A stretch of 22,425 nt of DNA from a bacterium (GTDB lineage: Bacteria > SM23-31 > JAUVVT01), in contig JAUWXV010000033.1 of the NCBI GenBank assembly GCA_030616165.1, forward strand, positions 1 to 22,425, given 5' to 3'. Of this stretch, positions 8,952 to 18,203 are shown one piece after another. The notes beneath the pieces are model-generated. The model was given only the letters and a program-made list of their open reading frames with translations, was not told where the DNA came from and made no database searches. Position 1 is the first letter of the stretch. Each line of letters starts with the position of its first letter. The position numbers and the translations under genes were made by a program.

Positions 8952-9872
8952 TTAAAAACTAAATAAAGCTTCTACAAACCTTTTTGGTTCAAAAATTTCG
9001 AGGTCAGATATATCCTCACCAATTCCGATATATTTAACCGGAAGACCCAATTCAAGTTTTATGGGTATAATTACTCCTCCTTTAGCAGTTCCATCAAGTT
9101 TTGTAAGGACGATTCCTGTTACCTTTGTTGCTTTAAGAAATTCTTTTGCCTGATTTATAGCATTTTGACCCATATTAGCATCAAGGATTAGCAATACCTC
9201 GTGGGGGGCATCCGGAATTATCTTTGCTATAACTCTTTTAACTTTTTTTAGTTCTTCCATCAAATTCACCTTTGTATGCATTCTCCCGGCTGTATCTATA
9301 ATAAGCACATCAACATTCCTCGACAAAGCAGCTTTCACAGAATCATAAACTACCGCAGCCGGGTCTGCACCCTGCTGAGTCCCGATTAAATCAACATTTG
9401 CCCTCTTTCGCCATATATCAAGCTGCTCAACCGCTGCCGCTCTATAAGTATCAGCAGCAGCAACTAAAACATCTTTGTCAGAATTTTTATAACAATATGC
9501 AAGTTTACCTATTGTAGTTGTTTTTCCTGTCCCGTTAACTCCTACAACAAGGATTATCCATGGTTTCTTTCCTAACTTTTCTTCTTGAAATGATTCACTA
9601 TTCTCCAGCATCTTGAGTATCTCTTCTTTAAGGAATAAAAATAAATTGTCTGAATCACATTCTTTATTTACTCTAAATTTTTCCTTGATATTTTCAATTA
9701 TACTCATACTTGCAGAGAAGCCAATATCCCCCTCAATTAAAATCTGCTCAATATTTTCAAGAATCTCCTCATCAATCTTTCTTTTTTTACCAAGAATCCC
9801 AATTATTCTGCTTAAAAATCCCTTTCTGGTCTTGGAAAGGCTATCTTTCAGTTTTTCAAACTCATTCTTCAT
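8952..9872 (-). CDS. ftsY: Signal recognition particle receptor FtsY
   Basis: This 306-aa SRP-family GTPase docks SRP-ribosome complexes at the inner membrane. A short N-terminal amphipathic/basic stretch (1-35) replaces the long acidic A region of E. coli FtsY, as in many non-proteobacterial homologues. The N domain follows (about 35-95), then the G domain with P-loop GVNGTGKT (111-118), DTYRAAAVEQL (141-151), DTAGRMHT (193-200) and TKLDGTAKGG (257-266). The conserved C-terminus is DLEIFEPKRFVEALF. The FtsY-type P-loop GVNGTGKTTT, a C-terminus ending soon after FVEALF, and the absence of an M domain separate it from Ffh. It follows pgsA after 19 bp. Confidence 0.96.
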   Translation of the reverse strand: MKNEFEKLKDSLSKTRKGFLSRIIGILGKKRKIDEEILENIEQILIEGDIGFSASMSIIENIKEKFRVNKECDSDNLFLFLKEEILKMLENSESFQEEKLGKKPWIILVVGVNGTGKTTTIGKLAYCYKNSDKDVLVAAADTYRAAAVEQLDIWRKRANVDLIGTQQGADPAAVVYDSVKAALSRNVDVLIIDTAGRMHTKVNLMEELKKVKRVIAKIIPDAPHEVLLILDANMGQNAINQAKEFLKATKVTGIVLTKLDGTAKGGVIIPIKLELGLPVKYIGIGEDISDLEIFEPKRFVEALFSF

Positions 9873-9891: not shown

Positions 9892-10428
9892 TTAAACTTT
9901 CGGCTTAACAGTGTCCTTTTGCAACCTCAAAAAAAGACGCCCGTAAGAAATCAAAGAAAGTATTATGAAAAATGTTCCTAAGTAAACCAAAGGCAGTTTC
10001 ATAAAATCCCAGTCTATAATATATACTCCGGCAGACGAAACAAGAATATTAATAGTAATCTTTCCGATAATGTTTGATTGAATTACCTGTCCTCTTTTCT
10101 TTATAAAAATAGAATTAAAAATGCAAATTATCAAATCCCTACCAATAATCAAAGATGCAAACCATATAGGAAAATTCCTTTTTATTACAAGAAAAACCAC
10201 TATTACCCCAATAAATATTTTATCAGCAAGAGGGTCTAATACTTTCCCCGTTATTGATATCTGTTTAAACCTTCTTGCAAAATATCCATCAAAATAATCA
10301 GTCAGTACCGCTGCGACTATTAAGCAAAATGCTATTAAATAATCTATGAAATATCCCCTATTTAAAAAATATATAACAGGAATAACCAGAAGAGCCCGAA
10401 TTATACTTAAAATATTTGCTATTGACAT
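9892..10428 (-). CDS. pgsA: CDP-alcohol phosphatidyltransferase, likely PgsA
   Basis: The 178-aa integral membrane enzyme carries the full CDP-alcohol phosphotransferase motif D-x2-DG-x2-AR-x8-G-x3-D-x3-D at Asp44, Asp47-Gly48, Ala51-Arg52, Gly61, Asp65 and Asp69. Size and text (SIANILSIIRALLVIPVIYF) fit phosphatidylglycerophosphate synthase, which makes PGP from CDP-diacylglycerol and glycerol-3-phosphate. Another CDP-alcohol transferase (for example archaetidyl-type) cannot be excluded by eye, and this matters given the neighbouring geranylgeranyl-reductase-like gene. The next gene after 19 bp is ftsY. The ATG at 10426-10428 has no visible Shine-Dalgarno. Confidence 0.85.
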   Translation of the reverse strand: MSIANILSIIRALLVIPVIYFLNRGYFIDYLIAFCLIVAAVLTDYFDGYFARRFKQISITGKVLDPLADKIFIGVIVVFLVIKRNFPIWFASLIIGRDLIICIFNSIFIKKRGQVIQSNIIGKITINILVSSAGVYIIDWDFMKLPLVYLGTFFIILSLISYGRLFLRLQKDTVKPKV

Positions 10429-10542: not shown

Positions 10543-11712
10543 TCATTTAAATACTTTTATAGCGTCGATTACAATTGGAGGATATTTTTTTAATGCACTA
10601 ATAAAAATATCTTTCAATGTTAATTTTTCAGGTGGAATTTCGCTCAACACTCTGGCAAGTCTGTTAAGAGTTCTGTCAGATAGTCTAAAGACCACCTTTT
10701 TTATTCTATAGCATCTTTTGTTTATTTCACCCACAGAATTGTTCCATTCTTGAGGATATTTCTTTAGCATTTTTTCAGTAACATCTCCCTTTATAACAGC
10801 CTCCGCAGCTATTCTTCCTGCAATTCTGCCTGCTTTCATAGCGTTTATAATTCCCCCGCCGGTAATCGGATTAGCCTGATGGGCTGCATCTCCAACAAGC
10901 ATCAGACCATTATTAACAATTTTATTTAACGGGGAAGCGCAGGGAATACCACCTGCTATCCTTGTGAGTATAGAAGCATCGGGAAAATGGTTTTTAAGAA
11001 ACTCATCAAGGTAAACAAGTGGTGATTTATTTTTTGAATAAATTCCTGAAATTCCAACACCAACATTTGCAATATATTTGTTTTTCGGAAAAACCCATGC
11101 GTATCCACCGGGAGCAATATTTTTCCCAAAATAAAAGTCGCTGAAACTCGAATCGATTCTTTTACTGGAAATTGTAACCTGAGCACAGCTCTCTATATCA
11201 CGAAGGATCGTATTAGATTTTATTCCACACCATCTTCCTACTCTTGATTCTACACCATCTGCTCCGATGACAATTTTTGACCTTATAGAGAACTTTTTTC
11301 CAAGATATTCTGCAGTTACCCCTTTTACATTTCCATCTTCCATAATAATTCCATTCGCATACATTCGAGTCATTATTTCAGTCCCCTTTTCCGCAGCCAT
11401 TCCTGCAAGCATATAGTCAAATACCCTTCTATCAAGAATATAACAGCATTCTCTCTCTTTTAATGTTACTTTACTTCCATCGGGGGCTACAAGTCTGAAA
11501 GTACTTATCTTATTAACAGCCCATCTCGGGTCAGGTTCCATAAATTCCTTTAAACCTGCCTCACCAACACCTTCTGCACACCTCACAGGAAATCCAATAT
11601 CCCGCCTTTTATCTAATAAAAGGACCTTCACACCTTTAGACGCCGCATAAAAAGCAGAAGTTGAACCTGCAGGTCCACCACCAACTATTATTATATCATA
11701 CTCTTCTTTCAT
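10543..11712 (-). CDS. Geranylgeranyl-reductase-family FAD-dependent oxidoreductase
   Basis: The 389-aa flavoprotein has the FAD-binding GxGxxG (VGGGPAGS, 10-17), CAEGV (45-49) where family members carry a conserved cysteine, and YILDRRVFD (91-99). It also has YAWVFPKNKYIANVGVG (204-220), matching the YxWxFP...GxG motif of archaeal geranylgeranyl reductases, and GDAAHQANPITGGGI (274-288). Family members hydrogenate isoprenoid double bonds: archaeal lipid chains, the menaquinone tail (MenJ-like) or chlorophyll phytol. Its ATG lies inside the end of an upstream 2x[4Fe-4S] ferredoxin gene (17-bp overlap), so the ferredoxin is the likely electron donor. pgsA lies 114 bp downstream. The substrate cannot be read from sequence: partial saturation of quinone or polyprenyl chains is the conservative guess, and ether-lipid chains are the exciting one. 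Confidence 0.85.
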   Translation of the reverse strand: MKEEYDIIIVGGGPAGSTSAFYAASKGVKVLLLDKRRDIGFPVRCAEGVGEAGLKEFMEPDPRWAVNKISTFRLVAPDGSKVTLKERECCYILDRRVFDYMLAGMAAEKGTEIMTRMYANGIIMEDGNVKGVTAEYLGKKFSIRSKIVIGADGVESRVGRWCGIKSNTILRDIESCAQVTISSKRIDSSFSDFYFGKNIAPGGYAWVFPKNKYIANVGVGISGIYSKNKSPLVYLDEFLKNHFPDASILTRIAGGIPCASPLNKIVNNGLMLVGDAAHQANPITGGGIINAMKAGRIAGRIAAEAVIKGDVTEKMLKKYPQEWNNSVGEINKRCYRIKKVVFRLSDRTLNRLARVLSEIPPEKLTLKDIFISALKKYPPIVIDAIKVFK

Positions 11713-11875
11713 TTTCTTTTATCGCTTCAAACGGACAAACATATATACATAACTTGCAGTTTGTACATCCATCAAGGATTTTTATACTCGTCTCTTTCAA
11801 TTCTATCACATTCGGCACGCAAACAGAGACACAAACCCCGCAGTAATCACACCTTTCTTCGATTAAGTAAATCAT
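11696..11875 (-). CDS. 2x[4Fe-4S] ferredoxin coupled to the reductase
   Basis: This 59-aa protein is too short for common ORF cut-offs but unmistakable. It has two complete cluster motifs: Cys9-x2-Cys12-x2-Cys15-x3-Cys19, with VP following, and Cys37-x2-Cys40-x2-Cys43-x3-Cys47-Pro. The text is MIYLIEERCDYCGVCVSVC at the start and CTNCKLCIYVCPFEAI in the second half. It starts at ATG 11873-11875 and stops at 11696-11698, overlapping the reductase start (11712) by 17 bp, so the two are translationally coupled. In Methanosarcina a ferredoxin encoded next to geranylgeranyl reductase feeds it electrons, and the same layout here suggests the same job. It lies 73 bp after the NSS transporter gene. 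Confidence 0.93.
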   Translation of the reverse strand: MIYLIEERCDYCGVCVSVCVPNVIELKETSIKILDGCTNCKLCIYVCPFEAIKENERRV

Positions 11876-16790: not shown

Positions 16791-18203
16791 TTAACTTAAA
16801 AGGGTTTTATTTTTTTCCACAACAGTTGCCATAAGTTCAGCTTCACAAACAAGATTATCTTCTACAAAAGTTTTTCCTTCCATCACAAAAACCATGTTTC
16901 TTCGTTTTTTCATATCGAGTTCAAAACGAAGTTGATCGCCTGGAATAACGGGTTTTCTGAATCTGACCTTATCAATCCCCGTGAAATATACAAGTTTCCC
17001 TTCTGGACTGTCCACAACATTAAGAAGAAGAATTCCTCCAACTTGAGCCATAGCCTCAACAATTAAAACACCCGGCATAATTGGATGACCCGGAAAATGT
17101 CCATTAAAAAAAGGTTCATTCACTGTAACATTTTTTATACCAACAATTCTTTTATCCATTTCAAAAGAAATAATTTTATCAACAAGCAGAAAAGGAAATC
17201 GGTGAGGAAGAATCTTTTCTATTGCGGATATATCGAATACAACACCTGGTTTTATGGATGTCTGGAATCTGCTGGTGAGCCTCTTTTTTTCGTATAGTTT
17301 CCGTATTTTTTTCACAAATTCAATATTTGCTTTGTGACCAGACCTTGCTGCAAGTATTTGTGCTTTTATAGGGATTCCAACAAGTGAAATATCCCCCAGA
17401 AGGTCCAAAAGTTTATGGCGACATAATTCATTCTTATATCTCAGTTTTACTCCATTTAAAATCCCATTTTTCCCAACCGTTACCTCTTTTTTTATGTTAA
17501 ACTTTTCCCTTAATCTGTTGATTTCTTTTTGATCTATATCTCTATCCACAATTACAATTGCATTATCAAGGCTGCCTCCTTTTATCAAACCCTCTTCAGC
17601 AAGTTGTTCAACTTCAGTCAGAAAACAAAAAGTTCTTGCGGGTGCAAATTCTTCAACAAATTCGTTTTCAAGAGAAAAAAGACCAGTATGCTGACTGCCA
17701 AGAGCGGGATTTTTGTAATCTATCATAACTGTAATCCTAAAATCATCGGTAGGCAGGGCAACTATCTCAACACCATTATCCTCATCTTTATATGTTATGG
17801 TTTCATCTACTACCAAATAATTCCGATAAGCATCCTGGTCAATAAATCCCACTTTCAGAAGAGTTTTAACAAAGGGGATTGAACTGCCATCTCCAACAGG
17901 AGGTTCATTACTGCTTATCTCAACTATTATATTATCAATCTCAAGTCCAGTTATTGCCGCAAGAACATGCTCAACCGTGTGCACCTTTATATCTCCGATT
18001 CCGAGTGTTGTTCCTCTTGATATATCAACCACATTATTTATTATGGCGGGAATCTCCGGGCTGTTTTCGCAGTCTTTCCTTACAAATTTAATTCCCGCAT
18101 CAGGGGGGGCTGGTTTAAAAGTTACTGTTGTTCCATTTCCCGTATGAAGTCCTATTCCAGAGTAACTTATTTCCCGTTTTATAGTCCTTTGAAACTTCCT
18201 CAT
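16791..18203 (-). CDS. Fused LpxC deacetylase and FabZ dehydratase
   Basis: The 470-aa protein joins two enzymes. LpxC (about 1-300) is the zinc deacetylase that commits lipid A synthesis. It has HTVEHVLAA (75-83: Glu78, His79), RHKLLDLLGD (262-271: His263, Asp267) and RSGHKAN (287-293: His290), so both the zinc ligands and the catalytic residues are present. FabZ (about 325-465) is the 3-hydroxyacyl-ACP dehydratase, with ILPHRFPFLLVD (331-342), GHFPGHPIMPGV (368-379: His369) and EAMAQ (383-387: Glu383). This fusion is known from Bacteroidota and related phyla. It places the two enzymes that compete for 3-hydroxyacyl-ACP use in one chain. GAGAGG precedes the ATG by 5 nt. Confidence 0.96.
   Translation of the reverse strand: MRKFQRTIKREISYSGIGLHTGNGTTVTFKPAPPDAGIKFVRKDCENSPEIPAIINNVVDISRGTTLGIGDIKVHTVEHVLAAITGLEIDNIIVEISSNEPPVGDGSSIPFVKTLLKVGFIDQDAYRNYLVVDETITYKDEDNGVEIVALPTDDFRITVMIDYKNPALGSQHTGLFSLENEFVEEFAPARTFCFLTEVEQLAEEGLIKGGSLDNAIVIVDRDIDQKEINRLREKFNIKKEVTVGKNGILNGVKLRYKNELCRHKLLDLLGDISLVGIPIKAQILAARSGHKANIEFVKKIRKLYEKKRLTSRFQTSIKPGVVFDISAIEKILPHRFPFLLVDKIISFEMDKRIVGIKNVTVNEPFFNGHFPGHPIMPGVLIVEAMAQVGGILLLNVVDSPEGKLVYFTGIDKVRFRKPVIPGDQLRFELDMKKRRNMVFVMEGKTFVEDNLVCEAELMATVVEKNKTLLS

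Follow-up and report, generated by a model that had tools for sequence, protein, structure and literature searches.

Does a bacterium that makes lipid A also carry a dedicated electron donor for the saturation of archaeal-type lipids, and if so, which isoprenoid chains would be reduced? An open question in work on the lipid divide is whether archaeal-type membranes are indeed made by bacteria. In FCB bacteria, GGGP and DGGGP synthases have reportedly been demonstrated, with the saturation of the chains and the source of electrons for it left open. The locus considered here lies in a 22,425-bp stretch of bacterial DNA, analyzed as a whole and referred to as the window, in which the gene for a very small ferredoxin overlaps that for a flavoprotein reductase. 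An earlier note on this DNA had proposed a ferredoxin-driven module for isoprenoid hydrogenation. We find that the ferredoxin-reductase module is real and well conserved. The pair is probably a bacterial member of the Methanosarcina-type, ferredoxin-dependent geranylgeranyl reductases (GGRs) that would saturate the geranylgeranyl chains of archaeal-type ether lipids. Family, clade, and gene linkage thus support the proposed module, and from these we infer the flow of electrons from ferredoxin to FAD, the exact substrate, the product, and the physiological role.

Both genes are encoded on the minus strand. The ferredoxin gene (positions 11696 to 11875) specifies a 59-aa protein with two CxxCxxCxxxC motifs, as the earlier note had described, and the product exceeds the cut-offs of the Pfam Fer4/Fer4_7 models (Fer4, 42 bits; cut-off, 21.1). 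We propose that this 2[4Fe-4S] ferredoxin may be the direct electron donor to the reductase. In the window, the codon pattern for CxxCxxCxxxC has exactly two occurrences, both of them inside this reading frame, and it appears in none of 100 shuffles; all eight cysteines are retained in relatives that adjoin the same reductase. A protein of this size is easily overlooked. The reductase gene (10543 to 11712) encodes an FAD-dependent GGR of 389 aa with its catalytic cysteine at position 45. The 3′ end of the ferredoxin gene overlaps the start of the GGR gene by 17 bp (11696 to 11712), again as previously read. We consider this overlap real, since the GxGxxG motif for FAD binding (GGGPAG) lies at residue 11 and would be lost with a later start, and the reading frame opens just two codons upstream of the start. 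The nearest relative, G001, has an identical 17-bp overlap, and the arrangement suggests that the two genes may be translationally coupled. A scan of sigma-70 promoters and terminators gave promoters no more often than expected by chance.

The reductase passes the curated cut-offs of both Pfam GGR_cat (88.9 bits; cut-off, 27) and NCBIfam TIGR02032 (GG-red-SF; 236.4 bits; cut-off, 158.8), and the solved DGGGPL reductase of Thermoplasma acidophilum (3oz2) matches it over its full length with an E value of 2.6e-74. An active-site cysteine, YxWxFP, GxG, and GGG are present in every GGR with demonstrated activity (PMC6309074). The window protein has C45 within CAEG, YAWVFP at 204 to 209, GVG at 218, and GGG at 285 to 287, which bears out the YxWxFP and CAEGV motifs claimed earlier, and Cys45 carries the same residue number as Cys45 of the T. 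acidophilum enzyme. This cysteine has been termed a critical redox modulator (PMC6309074) and is essential in the Sulfolobus GGR (PMC10821996). As such, the protein is a member of the GGR family, for which hydrogenation of geranylgeranyl double bonds is predicted. Among equivalog models, the best is DGGGPL reductase; however, the scores of 270 bits on NF041160 (cut-off, 780) and 184 bits on NF041080 (cut-off, 580) fall far below the cut-offs, so the protein is filed as a GGR only and equivalence to the Thermoplasma enzyme, from which it also differs in its ferredoxin linkage, is not claimed. Membership in the class of MenJ, the actinobacterial menaquinone reductase, fails at 57.5 bits against a cut-off of 700 (NF045655). 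The difference between 270 bits for the best DGGGPL reductase model and 57 bits for MenJ counts in favor of the GGR class.

Phylogeny gives a consistent placement. In a maximum likelihood tree of 70 rows (quick method, with SH-aLRT support only and the root not inferred), the window reductase pairs with that of G001 (support, 100) inside a bacterial group of 10 rows (100). This group sits within a 29-row group that includes Methanosarcinaceae and Methanolliviera (90), itself within a 34-row group (96). The clade holding the window also contains L042, L043, and L049, of which L042 and L049 are from Methanolobus; identity between the window GGR and L042 is 44%. Actinobacterial MenJ-like proteins form a separate and distant clade. 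The possibility raised in advance, that the reductase might fall among unrelated flavoproteins, was not borne out: it lies outside the halogenases, the lycopene-type enzymes, and MenJ and groups with the Methanosarcinaceae GGRs.

Which substrate such an enzyme would meet was addressed by searching the window's genome (3.74 Mb, 343 contigs, 90.2% complete) for the archaeal ether-lipid pathway, as the earlier note had suggested, and the outcome was mixed. GGGP synthase is present (C223; 209 bits on TIGR01769; cut-off, 161.55), and DGGGP synthase was not found in this 90.2% complete, 343-contig assembly, where the two UbiA proteins are a MenA-like protein and a decaprenyl-phosphate phosphoribosyltransferase. 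CarS was likewise not found in the window's genome, nor in 12 of 13 genomes examined, with G044 as the exception. A search for G1P dehydrogenase (EgsA/AraM) gave a best score of 51 bits on PF13685, a model of too little specificity to be informative, as it also matches Escherichia coli and 12 other controls. Across a survey of 60 genomes, in which the clade reductase was defined by a best E value below 1e-50 (n = 13), GGGP synthase exceeded its cut-off in 10/13 genomes with the clade reductase versus 4/47 others (Fisher P = 3e-6, with relatedness ignored). For genomes at least 90% complete, the counts were 7/7 versus 4/41 (P = 4.5e-6, again ignoring relatedness), and the three clade-reductase genomes without GGGP synthase are only 59 to 70% complete. 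UbiA proteins resembling DGGGP synthase were detected in G001, G004, G008, G044, G050, and G059 (best on NF009521/NF009523, with all scores below the strict cut-offs); that is, in the closest relative of the window's genome (G001, same family; L138) and in five of six other clade genomes examined, as judged from family-level matches or motifs. A putative shared synteny, in which a URO-D-like gene and then one for an SSS transporter come after both the MenA-like gene of the window's genome and the DGGGP-synthase-like gene of G001, was rejected because the neighbors are only 29% and 24% identical.

Candidatus Cloacimonetes offers the closest bacterial comparison, with a GGR reported to be related to those of Euryarchaeota, GGGP and DGGGP synthases, and no CarS, for which bacterial enzymes are thought to substitute, CdsA being able to do so (PMC7852524). 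The window's genome shares the GGR, the GGGP synthase, and the lack of a detected CarS with this FCB pathway; unlike Cloacimonetes, its assembly is without a recognizable DGGGP synthase. In addition, the main text of that report describes no ferredoxin partner, and the word appears there only in a reference title. The GGGP synthase in the same genome, its co-occurrence with the clade reductase, and the DGGGP-synthase-like UbiA proteins of the six genomes named above count for an ether-lipid substrate. Counting against it are the missing DGGGP synthase in the genome's own assembly, the missing CarS, the low equivalog scores, and the promiscuity of such enzymes in vitro.

A pgsA-like CDP-alcohol phosphatidyltransferase gene (9892 to 10428, minus strand; PF01066, CDP-OH_P_transf, 107 bits) begins 114 bp beyond the GGR stop codon, in agreement with the earlier reading of pgsA after the reductase, and its product, a candidate head-group enzyme, scores 92.5 bits on TIGR00560, slightly below the pgsA cut-off of 109.1. 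It is followed by ftsY (8952 to 9872, minus strand; TIGR00064, 352 bits), a conserved neighbor that stands outside the proposed function. The order GGR-pgsA-ftsY is common to the window, G001, and G050, the last from another phylum; with pgsA variably present, GGR-(pgsA)-ftsY-rimO occurs in G002, G003, G005, and G050 and GGR-(pgsA)-ftsY in G001. The full order in G050 is (purF)-(UbiA)-ferredoxin-GGR-(pgsA)-ftsY-rimO, with related versions in G001, G002, G003, G005, G006, and G059. Upstream of the pair in the window lies a gene for a sodium:neurotransmitter symporter. The window also holds lpxD, an lpxC/fabZ fusion, lpxA, and bamA-like genes (lpxD, lpxA, and bamA were named by eye), which makes the earlier description of the host as lipid A making a fair one. 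The LpxC/FabZ fusion protein itself (16791 to 18203) scores 666 bits on NF009667 and is clustered with the lpxD- and lpxA-like genes.

An alternative is that the module saturates the side chains of menaquinone, as MenJ or the menaquinone-specific prenyl reductase of A. fulgidus does, with ferredoxin as the donor. MenJ and the window GGR belong to the same superfamily of FAD-dependent prenyl reductases, and the MenA-like UbiA of the window's genome (PRK06080.1-1, 140 bits; TIGR00751, 71.6 bits, below the cut-off of 102) is probably a true MenA, since its close homolog in G005 adjoins a UbiE/MenG gene (C125); the species may therefore make menaquinone. However, no UbiE/MenG exceeds the cut-off in the window's genome or in G008, G035, and G059, which are 98 to 100% complete and all carry the reductase. 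G059 (99% complete) has GGGP synthase, the DGGGP-synthase-like gene, and the ferredoxin-GGR pair and lacks a MenA-like UbiA as well, which together with the missing UbiE in the three genomes makes quinone reduction unlikely as a general function of the clade. The reductase also scores far below the MenJ cut-off and stands apart from the actinobacterial MenJ-like clade, whose examined loci have no ferredoxin directly upstream, and its presence across genomes follows that of GGGP synthase. We thus regard a menaquinone substrate as unlikely, though less clearly so for the window's species, which has a MenA-like gene.

Improbable, too, is a module whose substrate would be not an ether lipid but a polyprenyl or dolichol-type carrier, free GGPP, geranylgeraniol, or whatever a divergent UbiA produces. 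Compounds accepted by archaeal GGRs include GGPP, GGOH, and dolichol phosphate (PMC6309074), and in G006, G050, and G059, three genomes of other phyla, a divergent UbiA prenyltransferase is encoded immediately upstream of the ferredoxin-GGR pair (L192:1236-2201; L193, in G050, L006:2847-3884; L194:6742-7701). These proteins match all NCBIfam models weakly, with some similarity to chlorophyll-synthase-like and other prenyltransferase models. Against this stands the observation that no divergent UbiA was found at the window's locus or at most other ferredoxin-GGR loci, and in G050 and G059 it coexists with DGGGP-synthase-like genes.

Whether the ferredoxin belongs to the reductase was judged from gene linkage. 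A two-cluster ferredoxin is encoded directly upstream of, or fused to, the GGR in 29/35 scorable clade members versus 0/34 outside the clade; the ferredoxin was not found directly upstream in the other six. Relatives devoid of the ferredoxin gene, which the earlier note had named as evidence against its proposal, are therefore the minority. Linkage extends over Ignavibacteriota, Chloroflexota, the Poribacteria phylum, further phyla, and Methanosarcinaceae (Methanolobus and one other genome), the 17-bp overlap recurs in two genera, and single-ORF fusions of ferredoxin and GGR occur in G008 (472 aa; L199:10052-11470) and G060 (475 aa; L182). These natural fusions support a ferredoxin that reduces the reductase. 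That the two genes are chance neighbors and the ferredoxin serves another pathway is most improbable: although 2[4Fe-4S] ferredoxins are generic and six clade members lack one directly upstream, linkage over several phyla and Methanosarcinaceae, the overlap in two genera, the two fusions, and 0/34 outside the clade all speak against it.

The precedent for such a partnership is archaeal. According to reviews that relate the original work of Isobe et al. (2014), the ferredoxin of Methanosarcina acetivorans makes the GGR more active in E. coli (PMC9385802, PMC10821996), and synteny of GGR and ferredoxin genes is a feature of many Euryarchaeota that Crenarchaeota do not share (PMC9385802). The window pair resembles this type in its clade, in the small two-cluster ferredoxin gene that overlaps the GGR gene, and in the same catalytic cysteine, YxWxFP, and GGG motifs. 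It differs in being bacterial, from an outer-membrane organism that makes lipid A and in whose genome CarS was not found. The gene order also differs: the M. acetivorans ferredoxin, which we know from reviews, is placed downstream of the GGR in one of them, whereas it lies upstream in the window and in the Methanosarcinaceae loci examined. Archaeal ferredoxin-GGR synteny and the GGRs of FCB bacteria are already published; the window pair is a bacterial addition to the ferredoxin-linked GGRs and is of interest for the lipid divide. A partial literature search found no paper on a bacterial ferredoxin-GGR pair.

A mechanism can be sketched on this basis. The small ferredoxin, made beside the GGR by way of the overlapping genes, would dock on the reductase and deliver low-potential electrons to its FAD; the resulting FADH2, with Cys45 beside the flavin, would hydrogenate geranylgeranyl double bonds. 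The likeliest substrate would be an archaeal-type ether lipid, namely DGGGP or its CDP- or head-group derivative, with DGGGP built from the GGGP that the genome's own GGGP synthase may supply. Head groups would then be attached by bacterial CDP-lipid/PgsA enzymes, such that the saturated chains end in phospholipids with bacterial head groups. If this reading is true, the ferredoxin would be the missing donor, and co-expression should yield fully saturated archaeal lipids from bacterial enzymes alone. The conserved pair, the fusions, and the association with GGGP synthase open this claim to direct testing. A fuller account, in which the organism makes saturated archaeal-type ether lipids beside lipid A and ordinary phospholipids by means of a ferredoxin-GGR module that methanogens also have and that is distributed over several bacterial phyla, with a Poribacteria branch that has exchanged the catalytic cysteine for selenocysteine, is put forward tentatively, at somewhat less than an even chance.

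That branch is a by-product of the analysis and more surprising than the main finding. The GGR gene of L011 (G044) has TGA exactly at the codon for the catalytic cysteine. Among 84 genomes of the Poribacteria phylum, the reductase was detected in 23, including G082, which carries the L041 sequence (“uncultured Poribacteria”). TGA occupies the catalytic position in 14 genomes (L164-L176, L178; L011 and L041 correspond to the gene regions of L164 and L171), and in 14/14 the frame runs on with conserved sequence. The codon is TGT or TGC in seven more distant homologs from the phylum, and two of the 23 matches do not span the position in frame. Counted from the start of the UGA, a hairpin lies at 17 to 33 nt; it is 97.4% paired, two of its pairs show compensatory changes, and an invariant G24 opens the loop. 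Its covariation score was reached by 0/500 shuffles, and no such hairpin was found in the seven cysteine homologs (26% paired). Codons downstream of the UGA are under purifying selection (dN/dS, 0.04 to 0.09 where dS is unsaturated), and tRNA-Sec was detected at 70 to 78 bits in 13/14 TGA genomes, along with SelB in G044. We reject a pseudogene or sequencing error behind the TGA on the strength of the frame conserved in 14 genomes, the covarying hairpin, and the purifying selection. We predict, from these features of the nucleotide sequence, that the TGA reductases are selenocysteine GGRs with a SECIS-like hairpin. They form one clade in the tree, which makes a single origin from the cysteine form likely. 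Such a UGA-encoded reductase would serve as a natural experiment on what the catalytic cysteine does, and a partial literature search turned up no report of a selenoprotein GGR.

Three further observations concern selenocysteine and these genomes. In G127 (L167 / L202 near 6525), the UGA reductase has an extra in-frame TAG 20 codons past the UGA, which may reflect either decay of this copy or an error. Three closely related UGA reductases (L164, L165, and L166, from G044, G098, and G101) no longer have the neighboring ferredoxin gene, which is retained in their relatives. Finally, tRNA-Sec and SelB lie close together in the window's genome (G000:C100:117-209 and 1520-1657), which indicates that it decodes selenocysteine; its own GGR encodes the catalytic cysteine by a TGC/TGT-type codon and has no in-frame stop.
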